The notes under the pieces were generated by a model. It saw only the letters and a program-made list of their open reading frames with translations. It did no database searches and was not told where the DNA came from. The position numbers were made by a program, and so were the translations under genes. Positions 17,704 to 28,002 of a DNA stretch of 63,000 nt are shown here, in pieces (within the stretch, counting starts at the first letter, position 1; each line of letters starts with the position of its first letter). This DNA is from Bacteroidia bacterium (GTDB lineage: Bacteria > Bacteroidota > Bacteroidia > Flavobacteriales > Flavobacteriaceae), in contig JAUIBP010000015.1 of the NCBI GenBank assembly GCA_030427735.1, positions 1 through 63,000 on the forward strand, written 5' to 3'.

Positions 17704-20076
17704 TTATTGAACAGCTGGTTTTAATTCGATTTGAACTTCAGCAATATGACCTTCAAACTTTGCAGGAGCCTTATAATTTTTGGTTACCGGAGAGCCTGTG
17801 TCTTCGCCAATTCCGAAGGTGTCAATACCATATCGTCCAGCTACGGTTTGTTCTACTCGCGCTTCACCTACTTTTTCATTATTGATAAAAAGCGTGAACA
17901 AACCACCGCTTCCTGGCTTACCACCATCATACTTAAAATCTATTTTAACGGAAGCCATTCCATTTGGCAATTTTTTGTTTGACGTAATGGTGGTATTGTC
18001 TTCAAAGAAATTGTAAAGGAAAGTCGGGTAGCCGTCTTTTACATAAAGTACATATCCGCCACCAAGACCGCCAATGGCATTGATAACCCCATTTTTATGT
18101 TTGGTGTCGGTTTCTAACAGCGCTTCCATGGTCCAAGAGGTGTTTTTTGTGTTTGGTGCGGCCGTTTCTGGCAAACGGGTAGCGCCTTCGTAAAAGGTGA
18201 ACGATTTGCGATTACCTAGCGGTGAGGGTTTCGGAACGGTTAAGCGACCTGCACCACGATCGTCTAACGGATATACTTCATATTTTTCGGCCTCTTTATC
18301 GAAGAGTTTTTTAAGTTCTTCTAGTTTTTCTGGGTGTTGTTCGGCAATATCGACAGCTTCAGAAAAATCTTCTTCAATATTGTATAATTGCCATACTTCA
18401 TTTTCGTAACCAGGCGCTACGTCTTGACGCCATGGCTTGGTGTGTTGGTGTGCTGCCACCCAGCCATCATGATAGATAGCCCGATTACTTAATACTTCAA
18501 AATATTGGGTGTTTCGAATTTCTTCAGCATTAGAATTTGTAAACGTAGAATAGAACGATTTTCCGGCAATAGGTTTTTGTTTTACACCATCTACATATTC
18601 TGGAAAACTGATAACAGTGGCTTCCATAATGGTAGGGACCACATCGATAACGTGTAAAAACTGAGAACGCATACCGCCTTTGTCTTTAATTACCTTAGGC
18701 CAAGTAACTACCATAGGGTTTCGAGAACCGCCAAAATGGGAAGCGACTTGTTTTACCCAAGGGAAGGGCGTGTTTCCAGCAAAAGCCCAACCTATCGGGA
18801 AGTGTGGTTCGGTTGTAGGGCCACCTATTTCGTCTGCTTTTTCAAGGTTTTCCTCTATGGTACTCGATATACCATTAAGGGCTTTTATTTCGTTAATAGT
18901 ACCATCAACTCCACCTTCTGCACTAGCGCCATTGTCGCCAACAATATACATGATTAAGGTGTTGTCTGCATCTGGAAGTTCTCCAATGGCTTTTAGTAAA
19001 CGGCCAACTTCATGATCGGTAAAGGCGAAATAACCCGCATAATTTTCATATAGCAACGTGTAGAATTTCTTTTGTTCCTCGTTAAGGCTATCCCATTCTG
19101 GAACATTTTCATTTCGTGGCGAAAGTTTAGCATCAGCAGGAATGATGCCCATTTTTTTCTGACGCTCGTATGTGATTTCACGCTCTTTGTCCCATCCGTG
19201 ATCAAATTTTCCCTTGAATTTATCGCGCCATTCCTTGGTAACATGATGTGGTGCGTGCATAGCTCCTGGAGCGTAGTACATAAAGACGGGTTTTTCAGGC
19301 GACATCGATTTTTGAAGTTTTAGCCAATCTATCGCTCGATTGGTCATATCAGTCTGAAAATGATAGCCTTCTTCTGGTGTTTTTTCCGGTTCTACAGGGA
19401 CGGTATTTTCAAAAATAACGGGATAATATTGGTGGGTTTCTCCCGCATTAAACCCATAGAAATAATCGAAACCTAAAGCGGTTGGCCAACGATCAAAAGG
19501 ACCTGCAGCACTCGTTTCCCAATCGGGAGTATTATGGTTTTTGCCAAACCAAGCGGTGTTCATGCCATTGTTTTTTAAAACCTTTCCTACGGTGGCTGTA
19601 CTACGCGGTATCAAGGTGCTGTAACTAGGGTATCCTGTGGCCCATTCTGCTAAAAAGCCATTGCCAGATTGATGGTGATTTCTTCCTGTAAGCAATGCAG
19701 CTCGTGTTGGTCCGCAAACTGCTGTAGTATGAAAGCGGTTGTAACGAAGACCTTGGGTTGCCAACGAGTCTAAATTTGGTGTGGGAATTGAACCTCCAAA
19801 GGTGCTGGTCATTCCAAAACCAACATCGTCTAAGAGAATAACAATAACATTTGGGGCGTCTTTGGGTGGGGTTGGCATCTTGGGCCAATCCATTTCCGAA
19901 TCGGCATACGTTTTACCTATTTTACCATGAAATTCTGGATCATCGTACGGGAGTTTGTTGTTGGATTCGGTTTGCTTTGAATCGTTTTGATTTGTTGTTT
20001 CACTTTTTTGCTGACAAGAAAATAAGCAGCAGGTTATAAAGAATACCAAAGAGCGTGCAATAGTTTTTGTTTTCAT
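17704..20076 (-). CDS. Arylsulfatase lipoprotein (type I, formylglycine-dependent)
   Basis: The 790-residue enzyme has a lipobox CLFSC (Cys21). The metal-binding Asp pair is in [10 protein letters not shown] (83-84). The modification site is C-G-P-T-R at 121-125, followed by [10 protein letters not shown], so Cys121 should become formylglycine. The sulfatase core includes [10 protein letters not shown], which fits the metal-site Asp-Asn region. The C-terminal 200 residues form a beta-sandwich-like domain ([23 protein letters not shown]). Known relatives hydrolyse sulfate esters; the substrate here is not evident. No formylglycine-generating enzyme gene is seen in the window. Context: between two DUF1254 lipoproteins on the same strand. 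A second, broken sulfatase of similar architecture lies 13 kb away. Confidence 0.95.
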
Positions 20077-20162: not shown

Positions 20163-21590
20163 TTATTTCAATTTCTCAATCGCTGGCAATTTATAAGTGC
20201 CATTTAGCGCTGGTTCTTGAGGAATATACATTCTGGCAATGATGTAAAACTCACCGTCTGGAGCTGGTAACCAGTTTTTCGCTTTATCACCTTCAGGTTT
20301 TTCTTTTTGAATGTACAGTGTTAAGGAGCCGTCTTTTCCATAACTTAAACCTTGTGTACGGTCGCCAATAGAATAGCGGTTTATTGGGTTTTTCACCATC
20401 AAACGCGTATCCGAATGGTACATGGTCATCGACCAAAAAGCATCTACAGGCGGTAGTTCATCAGCATCAAAATGTAAAATATATTGTTGTTGACTACCGT
20501 TTAAATTGTCATTGTCGGCATCGGCTTCAGCAATTGGATAAATGGCTTCTTCCGGACTGTTAGTGTAAATGAATTTGTAAGCCACTGCCGAACGAAATAA
20601 ATAGTCCTGACCGTAATTCCCCATCGGTGGAATGTATTCCCAGCCGTCTTCACGATTCCCTAAACTATTGGCTTTATCAACCACTTGTTGGTGGCCGTTT
20701 GCAATTCCTTCTTGAATGGCTGTTTGAATATCAGGACTAAAATTCTTTAAATCGAAGGTTTGATACGGCCCGATATTAATTTTACTGAAACGCTTCATCA
20801 TCGCAGTTTCGTCTTTAGTTGGCGATTGCCATTCTAAAAATTGATTCAGATAGGTGAATAATTTAGGTTTGGCATATAACGAATCGGCGTTGTAAATTGG
20901 GAAATTTGGTTTAAAATCTGTGGCTTTTGGTGCATCTGTTCCTAAAAAGGCACTTAAAGCATGTAGTTTCAATCCGTCTTGGATAGCAAATGCTTTTTTG
21001 TTGCCTGATTCGGTGCCGTCGGTAGCGGTTCGTGTGGCTAAAGCGACATAGCGACTTTTGGACACAATCACATCGTCAAACTTTCCCGCTGGAATGGATC
21101 CGTTATTATCAGGTCCAACAAGCACATAAGTACCACCATTTTTTCCTGTGGTTCGCGTACCGATGTAAGCAAAATTGTCGGTAAACATATCAACCAATTG
21201 AATAACAAAATAGGTGTCTCCTAATTTCGGAACTTCAATAACTAAAGGCTCATCACTTAAATCGGCCCAAGTGGTGGAGTAGAAGGTGTCGTTGTTTGGA
21301 GATACCACAGTGGTGTAATCGGGGTCGTATAATTTGCGTCCGTGTAAAAATTTATTGAAGCCAGAATAGGCTGGCGATTTTTCTGCAATGCACATCCCGA
21401 AAATGGCTTTGTAGTTTTCTACAATACCAAAACCGTAAACATAGGCTTCCTCGGCGATGGCTTTGGCTTCTGCGGCTGTTATGCTATTTATAGTTTGTGT
21501 GGATTGGGTAGAATCATTAGTTGTTGTTTGTTGTTGACAACCAGATAATAAAGCAGTTGCTAACACTAGACTTAAGAAGGTGGTTTTCAT
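20163..21590 (-). CDS. DUF1254/DUF1214 lipoprotein 2
   Basis: The 475-residue lipoprotein (LVLATALLSGCQQ) is a full-length, canonical member. DUF1254 spans about 40-175 (AYVYGFGIVENYKAIF, VVSPNNDTFYSTTWADLS, YFVIQLVDMFTDNFAYIGTR). DUF1214 occupies the C-terminal third (DAFWSMTMYHSDTRL ... INRYSIGDRTQGL ... NWLPAPDGEFYIIARMYIP). It ends in the family-typical GTYKLPAIEKL. It is read just before the arylsulfatase, so the two are likely co-transcribed and co-localised on the envelope. Function unknown. Confidence 0.92.
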   Translation of the reverse strand: MKTTFLSLVLATALLSGCQQQTTTNDSTQSTQTINSITAAEAKAIAEEAYVYGFGIVENYKAIFGMCIAEKSPAYSGFNKFLHGRKLYDPDYTTVVSPNNDTFYSTTWADLSDEPLVIEVPKLGDTYFVIQLVDMFTDNFAYIGTRTTGKNGGTYVLVGPDNNGSIPAGKFDDVIVSKSRYVALATRTATDGTESGNKKAFAIQDGLKLHALSAFLGTDAPKATDFKPNFPIYNADSLYAKPKLFTYLNQFLEWQSPTKDETAMMKRFSKINIGPYQTFDLKNFSPDIQTAIQEGIANGHQQVVDKANSLGNREDGWEYIPPMGNYGQDYLFRSAVAYKFIYTNSPEEAIYPIAEADADNDNLNGSQQQYILHFDADELPPVDAFWSMTMYHSDTRLMVKNPINRYSIGDRTQGLSYGKDGSLTLYIQKEKPEGDKAKNWLPAPDGEFYIIARMYIPQEPALNGTYKLPAIEKLK

Positions 21591-21663
21591 GGAAGGTTAT
21601 TTAGTGTTTTTCTATATAAAAGTACAAAGCTTTTGGGAGATATGAAACACGAATAGAAAAATC

Positions 21664-21697
21664 AAACCCTCAAGGTTTTTTAAAACCTTGAGGGTTT
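21664..21697 (-). terminator. Perfect 16-bp hairpin after the DUF502 gene
   Basis: The arms AAACCCTCAAGGTTTT and its exact complement are separated by two bases and start 4 bp beyond the stop of the DUF502 gene. The hairpin is symmetric with T-rich flanks and could terminate or shield transcripts on either strand. Confidence 0.8.
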
Positions 21698-21701
21698 ATA
21701 T

Positions 21702-22286
21702 TTAAGAAACAGGCAAACCTTTGCCTTGTTTTTTCATAATGCCCAGAAACGATTTGGCATCTAAATCAATTTTTTCGATGATTTTATTGTCTACAACTAG
21801 CACTTCACCTTCCAAAGCATTGGTAGTACTAGGAAAGAACACCACAGAGCTTGCTTCTTTTTCATCAATGAGAAGCCCAGGTTTATTGCCTACAGGCGTT
21901 TTCAACAAAACAGGAATGCGGTTGTCTGGTTTCGGACTTATTTTATTTTCTAAGTCGTTTTTATACTTGCTATACCCCGGAATAACATCCAATAACATGC
22001 CTTCAAACCAATTGTAAAATCTGATAAAACGAGGTAAGGTGGCTAAATAGCCAAAAACATAAAAAATAAGTAGTAATAATAAACCCGTTGTTACGGTGAT
22101 GGAATACTTACCAAGAAAATCGTCTAAATGTAAATTGTGTGCAACGAATTTTCCTAAATGACTGACTTTATACCACAGTTTTTCTATCACTACAAATAGG
22201 ATAAACAAAGGCAATAAATACATCATACCACTTACAATTTTATTGCGTGGTTTTTCTAGGCGTTTTTTGTAGTTGTATTCTTTCAT
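21702..22286 (-). CDS. DUF502-family membrane protein
   Basis: With the start at 22286 (MKEYNYKK) the protein is 194 residues. An ATG seven codons earlier lies inside the palindromic repeat ending at 22303 and was not preferred. Two membrane segments are visible (SGMMYLLPLFILFVVIEKLW and TVTTGLLLLLIFYVFGYLA), followed by a cytosolic or periplasmic domain with ASSVVFFPSTTNALEGEVLVV, consistent with DUF502. Function unknown. It sits among the DUF1254 genes, flanked by palindromic repeats on one side and a hairpin on the other. Confidence 0.72.
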   Translation of the reverse strand: MKEYNYKKRLEKPRNKIVSGMMYLLPLFILFVVIEKLWYKVSHLGKFVAHNLHLDDFLGKYSITVTTGLLLLLIFYVFGYLATLPRFIRFYNWFEGMLLDVIPGYSKYKNDLENKISPKPDNRIPVLLKTPVGNKPGLLIDEKEASSVVFFPSTTNALEGEVLVVDNKIIEKIDLDAKSFLGIMKKQGKGLPVS

Positions 22287-22302
22287 GATTTTAGATGGTT
22301 TT

Positions 22303-22454
22303 GTCATTCTGAACTTGTTTAACTTCGTTAAATCTTCGATTTCAGAATCTCATAATTTAATACTTTTTTATTTTATACTTTCTGTGCGATGCTGAAACAA
22401 GTTCAGCAAGACGTTCGTTATTTTTTCGTCATTCTGAACTCGATTCAGAATTTC
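22303..22454. repeat. Palindromic repeat cluster 1 (three REP-like units)
   Basis: Unit 1 (22303-22353) reads GTCATTCTGAAC...TTCAGAATCTCAT with a long loop. Unit 2 (22388-22413) reads GATGCTGAAACAAGTTCAGC and is inverted. Unit 3 (22428-22454) is again direct, GTCATTCTGAACTCGATTCA. Units 2 and 3 form an inverted pair with a 14-bp linker that recurs in two other clusters. Each unit can fold as a hairpin. The array fills the gap between the DUF502 and barrel genes. Confidence 0.85.
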
Positions 22455-22462
22455 ATTTATCA

Positions 22463-23302
22463 TCACAAAATTACCTGCAACTGAAACACGGCTTCCCAAG
22501 TGCCAACAATATCAGGCCTTACGGCGTTATAAAACAATTGTGCTGCGGCACAATAAAATAATTTGGATTGACCTATTTTGAAGGTTTTTCCAGCGCCACC
22601 ACCAAGAGGAAGTAAAAGCTGATCCCCACTTTCGGCCAGCCAATTGTTAACGATCGTAGCATTGCTTTCTAAAAACCAACCTTTAGGCAAATTGTAGTAG
22701 GTGAAATATTGAAAGTTAAAGGAATTCACTGCATTAGCGCCTTCACCGCCTAAGGACCAGTAATTCTGAATGACAAATCCACCAGAAAACGTTTCGCCTC
22801 CATGATTAAACAGGAATGAAGGTCCTAAACTCACACGATTGCTTCCAAGAACAGGTTCGGTTCGAGTTGGAAATTGAATGGCAGGCCCCACACCCCAACT
22901 GATGTTTCCCTTTTTTTGCATACTCGTAAAAAAACCGTTGAATAAAATATTTCCTAACCCGCCCGCGTGAGTTCTACCGCTTTCTTGGGTGGGCGTCGGG
23001 TAAATAGGAATATGACTGGTGGAATTATTTGCTGAAATAGATTGGAATGGAATAATAGTGTACGTTATCAGTTTCAGATTTTCACCTAGCCGAAATGGCC
23101 AAACAGGCTGTATAGAAAAGGATTGTGCCATACCGCCATCTATAGGTAATAAGACTTCTTGCAAATAAATACTGCGTAAGCCAGCTACAGGGTCTTGGCG
23201 TTTTTTGGCCATGTCTTCTACAGAGAGAGATTCTGGTTTGGTGTCTTGAGCGTAAGTATGAAAGCTAAGACATAAACATAAAGCAAGTAGTATGTTACGC
23301 AT
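22463..23302 (-). CDS. Outer-membrane beta-barrel-like protein
   Basis: The 279-residue protein starts best at the ATG at 23302, giving the signal peptide MRNILLALCLCLSFHTYAQ; a longer frame from a TTG at 23341 runs through a hairpin. The mature protein has many alternating aromatic strands (FSIQPVWPFRLG, LITYTIIPFQSI, ISWGVGPAIQFPT, GGFVIQNYWSLGG, FNFQYFTYYNLPKGWFL) and ends in a beta strand. It resembles the neuromedin-U-like/transporter group of barrel proteins seen next to DUF1254 genes. It may be an outer-membrane channel for the cluster's substrate (inference). Confidence 0.7.
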   Translation of the reverse strand: MRNILLALCLCLSFHTYAQDTKPESLSVEDMAKKRQDPVAGLRSIYLQEVLLPIDGGMAQSFSIQPVWPFRLGENLKLITYTIIPFQSISANNSTSHIPIYPTPTQESGRTHAGGLGNILFNGFFTSMQKKGNISWGVGPAIQFPTRTEPVLGSNRVSLGPSFLFNHGGETFSGGFVIQNYWSLGGEGANAVNSFNFQYFTYYNLPKGWFLESNATIVNNWLAESGDQLLLPLGGGAGKTFKIGQSKLFYCAAAQLFYNAVRPDIVGTWEAVFQLQVIL

Positions 23303-23322
23303 TTTAATGGACTTTAACTTTA

Positions 23323-23355
23323 AGCCCTCGTAGGGTTTCAAACCCTGCGAGGGCT
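23323..23355 (-). terminator. 16-bp hairpin between DUF1254 gene 3 and barrel gene
   Basis: Arms AGCCCTCGTAGGGTTT and AAACCCTGCGAGGGCT pair with one internal mismatch around a one-base loop. It lies between the stop at 23394 and the start at 23302, resembling the hairpin at 21664-21697 in its AGGGTTT core. No T tract follows; likely attenuation or mRNA protection. Confidence 0.6.
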
Positions 23356-23393
23356 ATATGTATTTTGAATGTAAAGCTTATGCTTTTAAAATA

Positions 23394-24950
23394 TTATTTC
23401 ACTTTCTCAAAATCACCAACCTTATACGTTCTGTCAAAGAACGCTTGATCTGGCCCATAGAATCTAAATAGACTAAACCAACCTTTACCTGGTACGGTTT
23501 TGATGAAATTTTTGTAGCCTTCTGTGTTTTCTGGGCCAACGTAAAAGGTTACCGAACCATCTTCATTGTATTCTAAATCGTTCATGGTGTTTAAAGACGG
23601 ATAATCTTGTCCTTCGGCAGCAACCCCCGATGCGGTTTCTGCATCGTAAATGGTAAGCGAGGTAAATAGTTTGGCTGGCATATTTGGAGGGAAAGTGATT
23701 TTGTATGTGTTTTCACCCATGAGGTAGTTACCATCACTGTCTTTGTAGGCATTACCATATTTTGCACCAAGCCCAACGATAGACGACATCATTCCGGTAC
23801 TAATCGAGTAATGATTAATATACATGTGTGCTTTGGCATTTACATCGGTGTGTCCTGTTTTTCGATCTCTAAATTCTTCATCGATAAGGGTGTGCATAAA
23901 ATCATCTAAATTGGTATGGGCATGCGCTACCCATTTGCGGTCTTTCCACCAAAGTCCATCTGGTTCTTCATCAAAATTACCTGAAATGGTTTTAGCCATT
24001 TTCCAAGCAGTTTCGGCAGCTTGTCCAAGTAATTCTTTTTCGCGTGCAGTCGGATTAAAATCAGCACCTTTTTTAATACCGATAGCCGCCATCATTCCAT
24101 GCATATAGGGGTCGATATTATCTACACGATCACTTTGGATAAAACGGTTAAGCATTTCGTAATACGAAAAATCATGAGCAAAAAGGGCATCAGAATCGAC
24201 GTCTGAGGCATGTTGAAAATCCATGGGTTTCGCTTCCCCTTCTAAAGGATATATTTTAATGCCTTCAACCCCTTTCACGCCCGGTTCTAAATCGTCAACC
24301 GATTTGAAAAAGCCACGTTGAAATATAAAAACGCCATTGGTTTTGCTGGTATATACATAGTAGTCTTTAGGTAATTTGCCCTTGTATCCCTCTGGAATAA
24401 TCACATATTTACCTCCTTTACCGCGGTCTGGTCCAGGAAATCCGATATCTCCTAAAAAGTTGGTGCCATCTGGTTTTTCTGGTCCTACAAGGGGTCTGTG
24501 CCAAAAATCGTCTAACAATCCTTGTAACATAGGCGGGACATCCAATACTAAAGGCCCTGTTTTACTTAAATCGGCAAAGCCAAGGGCATAAATCACATCC
24601 GAATTAGGTGTGGTAATCACCGTGTTTGGTTTTAAGCGTTTTTCGAATACCGAAATCACGTTGTAGCCTTCGCCAAAGGTTTTACCTAAACCTTCTTTCA
24701 TGGCGTACATATTTACCGCAGGTAGCGCCCATAAATAGACCTGTGTAGCACGCTGAAAATACAATTCTTCGGTTAAGGTTTTTGCTGAAGCCTCAGTAGG
24801 GTATCCTCCTGGCAATCGTAAATTGGCTAAGGTTTCGTAATGGTTTTCGGTTGAGGTAGTGGTGTCTGTATTCACCTTTTTCTCTGGTTGCTGGCAGGCG
24901 GTTAGTATAAGCGCTGCTGCAACAGTGGTTTTAATGAGGGTGTTTTTCAT
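23394..24950 (-). CDS. DUF1254/DUF1214 lipoprotein 3
   Basis: The 518-residue lipoprotein (AALILTACQQ) is the longest of the five paralogues. DUF1254 is at about 65-200 (YLWALPAVNMYAMKEGLGKTFG, VITTPNSDVIYALGFADLSKTGPLVLDVPP). The middle holds LDDFMHTLIDEEFRDRKTGH. DUF1214 is at the C-terminus (NTYKITFPPNMPAKLFTSLTIYDAETASGV ... GSVTFYVGPEN ... GKGWFSLFRFYGP). Members of this longer subtype are widespread in soil and marine bacteria; function unknown. Both flanks carry repeats: palindromic cluster 2 begins 26 bp before its ATG. Confidence 0.92.
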   Translation of the reverse strand: MKNTLIKTTVAAALILTACQQPEKKVNTDTTTSTENHYETLANLRLPGGYPTEASAKTLTEELYFQRATQVYLWALPAVNMYAMKEGLGKTFGEGYNVISVFEKRLKPNTVITTPNSDVIYALGFADLSKTGPLVLDVPPMLQGLLDDFWHRPLVGPEKPDGTNFLGDIGFPGPDRGKGGKYVIIPEGYKGKLPKDYYVYTSKTNGVFIFQRGFFKSVDDLEPGVKGVEGIKIYPLEGEAKPMDFQHASDVDSDALFAHDFSYYEMLNRFIQSDRVDNIDPYMHGMMAAIGIKKGADFNPTAREKELLGQAAETAWKMAKTISGNFDEEPDGLWWKDRKWVAHAHTNLDDFMHTLIDEEFRDRKTGHTDVNAKAHMYINHYSISTGMMSSIVGLGAKYGNAYKDSDGNYLMGENTYKITFPPNMPAKLFTSLTIYDAETASGVAAEGQDYPSLNTMNDLEYNEDGSVTFYVGPENTEGYKNFIKTVPGKGWFSLFRFYGPDQAFFDRTYKVGDFEKVK

Positions 24951-24975
24951 GAGTTATTTGTTTGTTGATGATTTC

Positions 24976-25108
24976 GTCATTCTGAATTTATTTCAGAATC
25001 TCATCATTTAATGTTTTTTTTAATTTATGCTTTCTGTGTGATGCTGAAACAAGTTCAGCATGACGTTCGTTATTCATTTCGTTATTCTGAACTCGATTCA
25101 GAATCTCA
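24976..25108. repeat. Palindromic repeat cluster 2 (three REP-like units)
   Basis: Units at 24976-25004 (direct), 25040-25065 (inverted) and 25081-25108 (direct) repeat the layout of cluster 1. Both the AT-rich spacer between the first two units and the short linker (TTCGTTATT...) between the last two are similar to cluster 1. The array fills the gap between two DUF1254 genes almost exactly: it starts 26 bp before one gene and ends 3 bp after the other. Confidence 0.85.
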
Positions 25109-25111
25109 AAT

Positions 25112-26296
25112 CTATTTAACCGTAAGCACTTTATGATTTTTTACAAAATCCTTACGGTACTCTACGATACTAGGCACCGAACTAGGTAAGTAACATCTAA
25201 ATAATGCATTCCAGTTTTTCGGTACTTTAATGTTATTAATAGCATCATCGCCACCGTTAAAATTAAGGGTAATGCTTCCATCGGCATTTGGTTTGGCTTT
25301 GGTGGAATTGGTGTTAAACGGATTCGTAACCACCCAACCTTGTTCGTTGTAAATAGTAATAGACCAGTAAGCTGCGCGATCGTATTGTAAATCGGGTTTG
25401 TTAAAAGTCACGGAACTATGTTCGCCATTTTTAGCACCTTCATCGCCAGGAAGCACCACAAAATAATAGGCGTGTTTAGCAGGTAGTCCAGCCCAACCTG
25501 CGGTGTTAATCATTTGGTATTGTGGTGTCTTTATGTTTTTAATGTCATCTATAAAACCTTCTTCTATCACACCTTCGGTAATGGCTCTTTTAAGTAATTC
25601 GCCGCGAAGTGTATTAAACGAAGTTACGTCATATTTCACTTCTGAGGTATAAGGGTTAGCCGATCCGGCTTCAACTACAACGGCATCTTGGCGTTTACGC
25701 ATGTCTTCCATACCTTTTTCGTCGTAAGTTCGTGGTCTGGTTCGCATAAAAAGGTAAACGTGATCGCCGTAACTTAAATCGTCTTTTGAAAATGATTTTG
25801 TTTCTCCAGGATAAACCACACCAATCGTTACCGAGTTTTCATCCAATACTTGTACAATTTGATACAAATCGTATTCAGGAACCGAAATCTTTAAGCCACC
25901 AGACACATCGTAAACGGCATAGGAATAAATGGCGTCAAAATTAGATCGGATTACAGTTTGATTATCTAAGTCGATACCATTGCGTTCATGTCTAAATTTA
26001 TTGGGGCCGCTAATGATGGTTTCGGCTGCTAGGTATTTGGCAGTTTCGGCACGAACGACATTGTCCATGTTAACTGTTTCGCCACCTTCATCAATAAAAG
26101 CTGGGTTTATTGCTGTGGCTTCACCGTTTTTGCCTACACCCGTTTTAGCCTCTTCGTCCGGTGTTTCTGTTGGCTTGGTTAATTGCTCGGTTTCTTCTAT
26201 TTGTGTTTGTGTTACTTCAGCTTCTTTTTTTTCGCTTTTGCAGGATGCAAGCAATAATATGAAGCAAAGGATGGTTATACTTGATAGTTTTTTCAT
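25112..26296 (-). CDS. DUF1254/DUF1214 lipoprotein 4
   Basis: The 394-residue lipoprotein has signal ITILCFILLLASCKSEKKEAEV. DUF1254-type residues are at about 75-190 (NGIDLDNQTVIRSNFDAIYSYAVYDVSGGLKISVPEYDLYQ cut short, then VQVLDENSVTIG). The DUF1214-type half has YDRAAYWSITIYNEQGWVVTNPF and GSITLNFNGGDDA ending in NALFRCYLPS. The mature N-terminus CKSEKKEAEV is shared with the next gene (26923-28002), including about 22 identical bases, which points to duplication. The linker up to residue 60 is acidic and low complexity. Confidence 0.88.
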   Translation of the reverse strand: MKKLSSITILCFILLLASCKSEKKEAEVTQTQIEETEQLTKPTETPDEEAKTGVGKNGEATAINPAFIDEGGETVNMDNVVRAETAKYLAAETIISGPNKFRHERNGIDLDNQTVIRSNFDAIYSYAVYDVSGGLKISVPEYDLYQIVQVLDENSVTIGVVYPGETKSFSKDDLSYGDHVYLFMRTRPRTYDEKGMEDMRKRQDAVVVEAGSANPYTSEVKYDVTSFNTLRGELLKRAITEGVIEEGFIDDIKNIKTPQYQMINTAGWAGLPAKHAYYFVVLPGDEGAKNGEHSSVTFNKPDLQYDRAAYWSITIYNEQGWVVTNPFNTNSTKAKPNADGSITLNFNGGDDAINNIKVPKNWNALFRCYLPSSVPSIVEYRKDFVKNHKVLTVK

Positions 26297-26346
26297 TGGT
26301 CTTATTTTATGGTTTGTTTATTTATGTGTGATTACGCTTTTTGTGC

Positions 26347-26519
26347 GATGCTGAACTAAATTCAGCATGACGTTTTGTTGGCGAATTCGTCATTCTGAGC
26401 TTGACTCAGAATCTCATCATATTTTTTGTTTTATTACGTTTTCTTGTGTGATGCTGAAAACAAGTTCAGCATGACGTTCGTTATTTTTTCGTCATTCTGA
26501 ACTCGATTCAGAATCTCAC
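26347..26519. repeat. Palindromic repeat cluster 3 (two inverted pairs)
   Basis: Four units alternate in orientation: 26347-26372 inverted (GATGCTGAACTAAATTCAGC), 26389-26417 direct (GTCATTCTGAGCTTGACTCA), 26450-26476 inverted and 26491-26519 direct. Loop changes keep the stems paired (CTGAA/TTCAG versus CTGAG/CTCAG), which suggests selection on the fold. The last unit ends 5 bp before the stop of the GIY-YIG gene. Confidence 0.85.
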
Positions 26520-26524
26520 CATAT

Positions 26525-26842
26525 TCAAAAATTTAAAGTTTCTAACTTTGGATTCATTTCTTTTATCAAATTTATCTTCCAATCTTTTTTCCAGTTTTTT
26601 GATTGTTTTTCTCTGGCAATAGCTTGTTTAATATCCGAAAATTGCTCAAAATAAATCAGGTCTTTAAGATTATATTTCTTGGTAAAAAGTGACCCGATTC
26701 CGTTTTGATGTTCTAGGATTCTTCTTTCTAAATTATTGGTAACACCAATGTAAAAAGTGGTTCTGTAGGTGTTAGTCAATATGTACACAAAGCTTGATTG
26801 CAAGGTTTTCTGTGTTATGTGATGCTGAAATCGAAGATTCAA
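26525..26842 (-). CDS. Single-domain GIY-YIG endonuclease
   Basis: The frame encodes up to 105 residues. The nuclease core has FVYILTN...TFYIGVTNNLERRILEHQNG, with the two signature tyrosine strands and the catalytic Arg, and later YFEQFSDIKQAIAREKQSKNWKK with the conserved metal-binding Glu in AREKQ. It fits the small UPF0213/UvrC-N type. No in-frame ATG exists; the frame starts with TTG at 26842, inside palindromic repeat unit 26821-26867, so the repeat supplies the first about ten codons (NLRFQHHITQK). The true start may be another non-ATG codon. It interrupts a series of DUF1254 genes but shares no function with them. Confidence 0.85.
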   Translation of the reverse strand: MNLRFQHHITQKTLQSSFVYILTNTYRTTFYIGVTNNLERRILEHQNGIGSLFTKKYNLKDLIYFEQFSDIKQAIAREKQSKNWKKDWKINLIKEMNPKLETLNF

Positions 26843-26912
26843 CGAAGTTAAACTAGTTCAGCATGACTTTTTGTTGTTTTCTCGTCATTCTGAGTTTATC
26901 TCAGAATCTCAT
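26821..26912. repeat. Palindromic repeat cluster 4 (one inverted pair)
   Basis: The inverted unit 26821-26867 has the long loop also seen in unit 22303-22353 (both contain TCGAAGATT and AACGAAGTTAAAC in complementary orientation). The direct unit is 26884-26912 (GTCATTCTGAGTTTATCTCA). The array spans the start of the GIY-YIG gene and ends 11 bp before the stop of the next DUF1214 gene. Confidence 0.85.
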
Positions 26913-26922
26913 TTAATTAAAA

Positions 26923-28002
26923 TTACTTTATAGCTGGCAACGTATACTCCCCAGCCACTACACCTTCCGAAGGCATGTAAATTCTGAAGCAAATCCAAAA
27001 GGGTTGTGTTGGCATTAGCAGTTTATTATTCTGCTTTAGACTGTCGTATTGATCTTCTGGAGTGTAATAAATATCGAAGGTTTTTCCGTCTGTATTCAAT
27101 TTGATTTCCGAATTACTAATCGTAGAACCTTTATCGGTTTTTAAATATTGATCGTCGCCATAAATGGTGATGGAGTAGAAACCTAGTTTAGGATCTTTCA
27201 TTTCTGGGACTTGGTAAGTCACTTTATGCACTTTACTACCATCAAGCTCGTATTTTTCGGTTAGGTAAACCGCATCTTTATCGGGTAATAATCCGGTTGC
27301 AATTGACACGCCACGGTTTCTAGCTTCAAGAGAGACAGGGTTGTCTATTGTTCCCATTGTGCCACGAACGCCTTCTTTACCTGCAATCTCAATATAATGA
27401 TCGAGAACACTTTTAAATTGAGCCATATTCCATGGCGTGACTTTGAATGATTTTGGTTGATAACCGTTTAGGTGTTCTACTTGAAGTTGATCTTGATATT
27501 CGTTAACCTTTTTTACGTCGGCATCACTTTTTGGGTTGACTTGCATGCGCACGTTCGCCCAGAAAAAATCGGTGGTTTTGGAAGCTGGAATTACGTAACG
27601 TCCTGGTCCGTAAAACACATCAACCGTTACGTGATCGTGGTTTACAACATGTAGGGACATGTAGCGTCCGTCGTTTTCTGGAAGCGTAATGGCTACATCG
27701 CCACCGCCATCGAGAATGGCAAAGGAATAGTTAGTATCGCGATTCATAAGTGGCGCTGGTTGCTCGTCTAAAGGCATGGGCTTACGGTGGTGGTTCCAAG
27801 TATTATTGGCACCTTGTACAAATTCTTTTTGCATCGCCAAATCGGCCATGGCGTAAGCGAAATTCTCGTTATTAACGGCAACGGTGGTATCTTTTACGGT
27901 TTCAGTTTCGGTTTGTATAACTTCGGCTTCTTTTTTTTCGCTTTTGCAAGAGGCAAAGGCTAAGGCGGTGCAAATGATGATACTGCTATAAAATGTTTTC
28001 AT
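26923..28002 (-). CDS. DUF1254/DUF1214 lipoprotein 5
   Basis: The 359-residue lipoprotein has signal IIICTALAFASCKSEKKEAEV, nearly the same mature start as lipoprotein 4. The N-terminal domain shows PLMNRDTNYSFAILDGGGDVAITLPENDGRYMSL (split here) and VVNHDHVTVDVFYGPGRYVI. The C-terminal DUF1214 part shows KLGFYSITIYGDDQYLKTDKG and PTQPFWICFRIYMPSEGVVAGEYTLPAIK. This ending is typical of the family. It is the first gene of the minus-strand series and diverges from the marR operon; the 245-bp gap between them should contain both promoters. Confidence 0.9.
   Translation of the reverse strand: MKTFYSSIIICTALAFASCKSEKKEAEVIQTETETVKDTTVAVNNENFAYAMADLAMQKEFVQGANNTWNHHRKPMPLDEQPAPLMNRDTNYSFAILDGGGDVAITLPENDGRYMSLHVVNHDHVTVDVFYGPGRYVIPASKTTDFFWANVRMQVNPKSDADVKKVNEYQDQLQVEHLNGYQPKSFKVTPWNMAQFKSVLDHYIEIAGKEGVRGTMGTIDNPVSLEARNRGVSIATGLLPDKDAVYLTEKYELDGSKVHKVTYQVPEMKDPKLGFYSITIYGDDQYLKTDKGSTISNSEIKLNTDGKTFDIYYTPEDQYDSLKQNNKLLMPTQPFWICFRIYMPSEGVVAGEYTLPAIK

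Follow-up and report, generated by a model that had tools for sequence, protein, structure and literature searches.

A GIY-YIG nuclease gene and the two inward-facing, GTC-tagged palindromes that enclose it probably constitute an autonomous mobile element of about 380 bp, of which gene-less palindrome pairs would be derivatives. The element resides in the window, as the whole stretch of 63,000 nucleotides analysed is called here. Its architecture, the clade-specific pairing of nucleases and palindromes, the co-occurrence of the two in genomes, and the occurrence of filled and empty sites are shown by comparison of sequences.

The nuclease gene and the palindromes of the window

The relevant features of the window are the following.

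22303 to 22413, no strand assigned: gene-less palindrome pair with AT-rich spacer (sequence)
24976 to 25065, no strand assigned: gene-less palindrome pair with AT-rich spacer (sequence and pattern scan)
25081 to 25108, plus strand: palindrome with altered tag (GTTATTCTGAAC...), beside the pair 24976-25065 (sequence)
26347 to 26371, minus strand: solo palindrome next to the array (pattern scan)
26388 to 26477, no strand assigned: gene-less palindrome pair, AT-rich spacer where the ORF would be (sequence and pattern scan)
26490 to 26518, plus strand: CGTC-tagged palindrome, 3' end of the element, CGTCATTCTGAACTCGATTCAGAATCTCA; tag CGTC at 26490-26493
26525 to 26803, minus strand: GIY-YIG nuclease ORF, 92 aa, probable TTG start at 26801-26803
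26820 to 26867, minus strand: GTC-tagged palindrome, 5' end of the element, GTCATGCTGAAC...TTCAGCATCA, with enlarged loop; related copies exist
26883 to 26911, plus strand: palindrome beyond the nuclease unit, partner in the alternating array (sequence and pattern scan)

In its longest version, the nuclease ORF spans 26525-26842 on the minus strand (105 aa) and matches Pfam family PF01541 (GIY-YIG) with an E-value of 9.5e-15 (55.1 bits, cut-off 22.6); no other domain is matched. This version extends into the loop of the palindrome 26820-26867. Since the N-termini of relatives consist of M, one to three residues, and then [FY]-x-Y-[IVM], translation probably starts at the TTG at 26801-26803, 16 bp inward of the palindrome, and yields a protein of 92 aa. 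A TTG start at 26842 was rejected on the start positions of relatives. The first-pass annotation had placed the gene between two palindromes, one close to its stop codon and the other containing its TTG start. The ORF, its PF01541 match and both palindromes are confirmed, and the palindrome 26490-26518 ends 6 bp before the stop codon; the start, as judged from relatives, probably lies outside the other palindrome. The ORF list of the 380-bp element includes no transposase ORF.

The two palindromes of the element face inward, their GTC tags pointing outward, and the surrounding palindromes alternate in orientation. The tag of the palindrome 26820-26867 reads, with the next base, AGTC. Its loop is enlarged to 27 nt, and the palindrome is for this reason not counted by the exact pattern GTCANNCTGAN7TCAGNNTC, which occurs in 34 copies, many in pairs or arrays, in the 3.64-Mb window genome (0 copies of the reversed control pattern). 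A similar enlarged-loop insert, AACTTCGTTAAATCTTCGA, is found in one palindrome of the pair 22303-22413. Gene-less pairs had been claimed to share their junctions with the nuclease unit. All three pairs (24976-25065, 22303-22413 and 26388-26477) were confirmed, but the left junction is only similar to that beside the gene (TTCAGCATCACACAGAAA in the gene-less unit, TTCAGCATCACATAACACAGAAA beside the gene).

Several DUF1254/DUF1214 paralogues, three of them Pfam-confirmed, surround the palindromes and the nuclease (20163-28002). The window genome carries a second GIY-YIG gene (L002, G000:C3:164090-167368), 44% identical to the first and surrounded by repeats of another, asymmetric type (GTCATGCAGA.../GCTCTGAATGACA). 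A perfect palindrome match resides inside a coding gene (L160/L006, G000:C11:65487-65511), where it reads DEILKQVQNDD. An RPE-like in-frame insertion is ruled out, as congeners align gap-free, and the palindrome was possibly converted from a near match.

Palindromes flank most nuclease genes of the family

Flanks were read for 130 nuclease genes, a part of all nuclease matches (133 genes, less two with too little flank and L140, the same locus as L012). Units were defined as GTCA-tagged palindrome units within 160 bp of the gene. Such units were found upstream in 81/130 loci, downstream in 85/130, on either side in 98/130 and on both sides in 68/130; the median distance to the gene is 16 bp on the upstream and 9 bp on the downstream side. 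In 42 of the 68 two-sided loci, the tags of the two nearest units both point outward. By this strict rule 32/130 loci have a unit on neither side. The possibility, raised at the outset, that relatives of the gene occur without palindromes thus applies to a minority of loci.

Ten mononucleotide shuffles per locus (131 loci) gave on average 0.7 loci with a unit upstream, 0.6 downstream and 0 on both sides, and control windows 700-1160 bp away contained units in 3 to 11 of 127-131 loci. By a hairpin criterion, both sides were positive in 77/132 nuclease loci vs 2/132 far windows. The first hairpin detector (stem of at least 7) overlooked the short-stem palindromes of type E, and the tag-based detector was used instead.

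Many loci share their location. In 24/133 cases (e.g. L013, L019, L022-L027) the nuclease recurs, co-oriented with the operon, at shared operon junctions, such as trpB|trpA, bioD|bioA and others in the bio cluster; trpB|trpA holds different nuclease clades. Recurrence at the same junctions fits a long vertical stay and was counted against the mobile-element reading. In another locus (L095, G019:C20:44900-48100), a full nuclease match and two weaker ones lie within 3.2 kb, with type-B palindromes between them, an arrangement which suggests local duplication.

Palindrome types follow nuclease clades

Palindromes vary with the nuclease clade, and their types are A (CTGAACTTGTTTCAG), B (CCTGCGNAGGCAGG), C (CCGCACTTGATGCGG), D (TGCGCACTTGTTGCGCA) and E (ATTTCGACGTAAGGAGAAAT and similar). 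Type A spans two separate clades, and the labels, with A1 and A2 pooled, were defined after the flanks had been read. The nuclease tree includes 130 of the 133 proteins, and 122 were labelled once 8 unlabelled rows had been excluded. In this tree, a short one (103 columns, 66/126 inner branches open), the palindrome label changes 14 times, vs a minimum of 51 and a mean of 58 in 200 shuffles (n=122); when one locus that had been counted twice is removed, 14 changes compare with a shuffle minimum of 51 (n=121).

The correspondence extends to palindromes counted genome-wide. The nuclease clade was assigned in 89 of 170 carrier genomes (81 untyped), which may hold further untyped nuclease copies. 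At least five type-A palindromes reside in 42/56 genomes with clade A (A1+A2) vs 7/33 others (OR 11, p 9e-7); for type-B palindromes the figures are 16/56 vs 9/33 (OR 1.07). Clade B1 shows the reverse, being linked to palindrome B (12/14 vs 13/75, OR 29, p 1.4e-6) and not to palindrome A (7/14 vs 42/75, OR 0.79). Genome-wide palindrome counts follow the nuclease clade, with a double dissociation in the 89 typed genomes.

The protein family

The Tyr, Tyr, Arg, Glu and Asn residues, which we take to be the catalytic residues of the GIY-YIG domain, are kept in 127, 129, 129, 130 and 126 of 130 proteins, respectively (one locus counted twice). The median dN/dS is 0.11 (0.02-0.51) over 115 close, non-independent pairs of nucleases. 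Low dN/dS and conserved catalytic residues suggest that the nuclease function has been kept.

Selection of this kind is also compatible with a role in the host. The nuclease may be a passenger, captured and retained for a task such as hairpin processing or repair, and the palindromes may be spread by another enzyme, or by slippage or conversion. We regard this as improbable. The solved sequences closest to the family profile are the UPF0213 proteins BH0048 (1zg2, E 9e-11) and EF2693 (1ywl, E 3e-8), which are similar in length to the nuclease; UvrC is matched weakly. Relatives of this sort would suit a passenger, as would the palindromes found in some genomes in which the nuclease was not detected. 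The clade-by-clade match of nuclease and palindrome, both at the flanks and genome-wide, is unexpected if an unrelated enzyme moves the latter. The gene is moreover patchy (170/298 genomes), often present in multiple copies per genome, and interrupted by internal stops in some copies, unlike a housekeeping gene.

Nuclease and palindromes co-occur in Flavobacteriaceae

The survey covered 298 Flavobacteriaceae genomes from 236 genera. The nuclease was found at E <= 1e-8 in the 170 carriers mentioned above, and type-A palindromes in 115/298 genomes; the reversed-pattern control gave 0 in every genome. At least five type-A palindromes, including those flanking each nuclease, are present in 60/170 carriers vs 4/128 non-carriers (OR 17, p 7e-13), and the association holds in the 230 genomes over 2.4 Mb (OR 9.9, p 1e-7), p-values which are too small, the genomes being related and kinship ignored. 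All 30 genomes with a close homologue of the nuclease (best E <= 1e-30) have at least three type-A palindromes. The element reading had been said to fail if palindromes were equally abundant in genomes lacking the gene, and they are not. Type-A palindromes are absent from 71/170 carriers, and 16/128 non-carriers have at least one (15 in G164, 13 in G198). In one genome, 10 type-B palindromes were counted and the nuclease was not found at E <= 1e-8 (G096). Clustered, near-identical palindromes were seen in a segment (L139, G164:C14:270000-279000) of a genome without nuclease at the same threshold.

Genes for Y1 transposases (Y1_Tnp) are present in 104/298 genomes, and the window genome has two. 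That such a Y1/HUH enzyme, IS200-like or RAYT, moves the palindromes, the nuclease being incidental, is very improbable, even if RAYTs are the proposed movers of GTAG-tagged REPs (PMC3733652). Y1 is weakly linked to the presence of at least one or at least three palindromes in the 298 genomes (OR 1.8, p 0.02 and 0.04), but this link disappears once only the 230 larger genomes are considered (p 0.28 and 0.40, respectively), and Y1 does not predict the presence of at least five (28/104 genomes with Y1 vs 36/194 without, OR 1.6, p 0.10). Among 38 Y1 loci (40 from the stronger matches among those listed, two short ones dropped), a tagged unit was found on either side within 160 bp in one, and neither Y1 gene of the window genome has a tagged unit within 160 bp. 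Tyrosine transposase genes in CGTC-positive species are described by Di Nocera et al. (PMC3733652) as not flanked by CGTC sequences.

Filled and empty sites

The trpB|trpA junction was compared in the six species of the window genus. It is empty, measuring 4 bp, in the window genome (G000). In two congeners (G300, G301) a clade-A nuclease lies there, embedded in arrays of palindrome pairs, and its ORF replaces the AT-rich spacer of one unit among otherwise gene-less units. Two others (G298, G299) have a different nuclease and palindromes of another sequence, lacking the GTC tag; G014 has an internally deleted version of the same copy.

Similar differences were seen in Azospirillum and Sphingobium. 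The sufB|sufC junction of Azospirillum lipoferum measures 617 bp and contains the nuclease, flanked on either side by palindrome pairs; it measures 91, 87 and 129 bp in A. ramasamyi, A. oryzae and strain B510 (95.6-96.1% identity), and is thus 490-530 bp shorter in the three relatives. The CGTC-tagged palindrome is absent from this site in A. ramasamyi, A. oryzae and B510, the last of which has an inverted repeat of unrelated sequence. In Sphingobium, the arrangement CGTCACCCCGGGCTTGACCCGGGGTCCCG-ORF-CGGGACCCCGGGTCAAGCCCGGGGTGACG is found in strains 7A, MM15 and TYG46 (in TYG46 with one altered base and without the final G). At the same site, TYG64 has only a fused palindrome, CGTCACCCCGGGTCAAGCCCGGGGTGACG, as does TYG74 with two changes, and the break falls in the repeated ACCCCGGG stem arm. 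TYG65 carries at this site (AP027331.1, 775872 region, L327) a different REP-like palindrome, ATTCCAGCCTCCGCTGGAAT, without GTC tag, as if the site had been used more than once. In TYG72 an inverted repeat unrelated to these lies there. The Sphingobium difference may have arisen in two ways: the arms recombined and the ORF was lost, or a palindrome acquired the ORF. Fused type-A palindromes were not found in the family loci, vs 456 normal occurrences (overlapping loci unmerged). Inspection by eye revealed no target-site duplication at the sites compared, whose flanks have diverged.

Gene-less pairs are dispersed, too. A composite of about 140 bp, formed by a palindrome pair inside the loop of a terminator-like stem, is present in at least 23 copies in G000 (21 plus two in the query; several of L141-L163 in contigs C2-C12, and L304:676-818 and 19088-19225); among 40 scored candidates per genome in its five congeners, the composite was absent at E <= 1e-30. 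The stem arms vary in matched fashion between copies, as judged by eye, and one arm of the palindrome pair is not type A. For one composite, the orthologous site was compared in three of the five congeners: a bare hairpin occurs in G299 and G301 where G000 has the pair in the loop, and G014 has none. G000 itself has three bare hairpins that share this stem core. Bare hairpins at the orthologous site and in G000 make it appear that gene-less pairs enter terminator loops.

The comparison of empty sites in relatives, proposed in the first-pass annotation, is therefore in favour of mobility, for the gene unit in the window genus, Azospirillum and Sphingobium, and for gene-less pairs at the single site just described. 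Together with co-occurrence and flanks, these sites back the idea of an autonomous element with MITE-like derivatives. The wording 'transposon without a transposase' exceeds the evidence, because homing-like gene conversion would give the same anatomy and mobility is deduced here from sequence comparison.

GIY-YIG enzymes include homing endonucleases, and the strongest rival to the element reading supposes that the nuclease is a free-standing enzyme of this kind. It would cut a gene-less palindrome or palindrome pair, and repair from a gene-bearing copy, through homology of the palindrome arms, would insert the ORF; the palindromes, arising by other means, would serve as target and homology arms. 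The rank of this rival is due to the ORF occupying the place of the spacer in one unit of the otherwise gene-less arrays of G300 and G301. The Sphingobium strains, which differ by the ORF plus the inner palindrome halves vs a single palindrome fused within the ACCCCGGG stem, fit it too. It counts against homing that gene-less pairs are dispersed as well, one of them lying where two congeners have a bare hairpin, and that the empty trpB|trpA (G000) and sufB|sufC sites contain no GTC-tagged palindrome. Homing enzymes usually have a separate DNA-binding domain, whereas the nuclease matches one domain only. On balance, homing is a rather unlikely explanation, less so than those considered above, and an autonomous element is preferred.

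Nuclease and palindromes outside Flavobacteriaceae

A scan of collected genome contigs was evaluated for the best 80 loci among the matches listed, 77 after removal of 3 too short. A unit was found on at least one side in 30/35 of these best loci labelled Flavobacteriaceae and in 36/42 others (far controls 1/31 and 1/36); some of the loci (e.g. L226, L229, L275, L285) share contigs with the family flank set, so that the two sets are not independent. Five of the 42 carry the label of class Flavobacteriia or match a contig of the family (L221, L226, L248, L256, L271), all with a unit, which leaves 31/37. Outside Bacteroidota, units mark 15/18 of the best loci, in phyla that include Thermotogota, Myxococcota, Bacillota, Ignavibacteriota, Balneolota, Pseudomonadota and candidate phyla.

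In a plasmid collection, 14 of 32 matching records were examined. A unit lies within 200 bp on at least one side in 10/14 and on both sides in 8/14, and Azospirillum lipoferum 4B is among the flanked records. R. tumorigenes has no unit within 200 bp of the nuclease. The GTCA rule overlooked the CGTC-tagged palindromes of Novosphingobium aromaticivorans, in which the next base is G, and the palindromes of Sinorhizobium meliloti, which have CTC ends; both were seen by eye. In a Neisseria gonorrhoeae record the nuclease is accompanied by ATTCCCGCGCAGGCGGGAATCC palindromes, presumably of the dRS3 type. Phage cargo was discarded as an explanation, as viral contigs contained only 5 relatives of the nuclease.

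Relation to known repeats and enzymes

Small intergenic genes that spread without an intron are known among the free-standing GIY-YIG homing endonucleases of the Seg type. The element is similar to them in having a small GIY-YIG gene in intergenic gaps, and differs in its palindromic ends, gene-less derivatives and single matched domain.

RAYT/REPIN systems resemble the element in other respects. In these systems the gene is flanked by inverted palindromes, many gene-less pairs reside elsewhere, and the enzyme clade tracks the palindrome type, as does the nuclease here. They feature an HUH tyrosine transposase and a GTAG tag, in contrast to the GIY-YIG nuclease and CGTC/GTC(A) tag of the element. 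In one paper, a GIY-YIG gene and a RAYT figure as clade-specific genes distinct from each other.

According to Di Nocera et al. 2013 (PMC3733652), CGTC-tagged REPs form a superfamily found in five phyla, which includes Neisseria dRS3 and Rickettsia RPE-4 and RPE-6. They have an unpaired CGTC or TGTC tag at one end, a stem of 8-9 bp, a loop of 4-5 nt and a short unpaired tail, and are mostly intergenic, inward-facing dimers. The palindromes of the element are likewise inward-facing and repeated genome-wide, and they resemble those of this superfamily. The palindrome 26490-26518 carries at 26490-26493 a CGTC, one of the terminal tags (CGTC/TGTC/CCTC) that define CGTC REPs, and has an 8-bp stem (ATTCTGAA), a 5-nt loop and the tail CTCA. 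Departures were also noted. The loop of the palindrome 26820-26867, at 27 nt, exceeds the 4-5 nt of CGTC REPs; stems start with AT and tails are near CCA in the CGTC REP consensus, whereas tails are here more often TCA and many type-A stems begin with AC or AA.

CGTC REPs are reported to lack any association with transposase genes and apparently have no dedicated transposase; it has been proposed that their enzyme was lost early, or that assorted other transposases do the work (PMC3733652). 'GIY' is not mentioned in the main text of that paper, and in a 2018 study on HUH enzymes (PMC6006769) 'CGTC' occurs only within the title of a reference. A search of the literature, outside of which lay most subscription papers and all preprints, found no report linking GIY-YIG nucleases to REP palindromes. 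We put at about even the chance that CGTC REPs of many phyla, Neisseria dRS3 and by extension the rickettsial elements among them, owe their mobility to a dedicated enzyme, a GIY-YIG nuclease of a single domain.

A model for mobility

The palindromes of an autonomous element would extrude as hairpins on single-stranded or supercoiled DNA. The GIY-YIG nuclease would recognise its cognate hairpin pair and cut there. Copying or joining would then bring the unit to another location; frequent destinations would be the gaps between genes of an operon, palindromes already present, and terminator hairpins, in whose loops the unit would settle. Gene-less pairs would be non-autonomous derivatives, mobilised in trans. 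Binding and cleavage of the palindromes by the nuclease, the transfer step and mobilisation in trans are inferred from the comparisons described above.

If the model is true, one nuclease of about 95 residues and two hairpins would make up a new class of minimal autonomous elements, presumably among the smallest known to be mobile, able to spread gene-less pairs in trans. REP biology would gain a second, unrelated class of enzymes, GIY-YIG nucleases a new role, and repeats such as dRS3 a candidate mover. A gene with palindromes at both ends, matched by clade across phyla, makes the question of what moves CGTC REPs testable at the bench.
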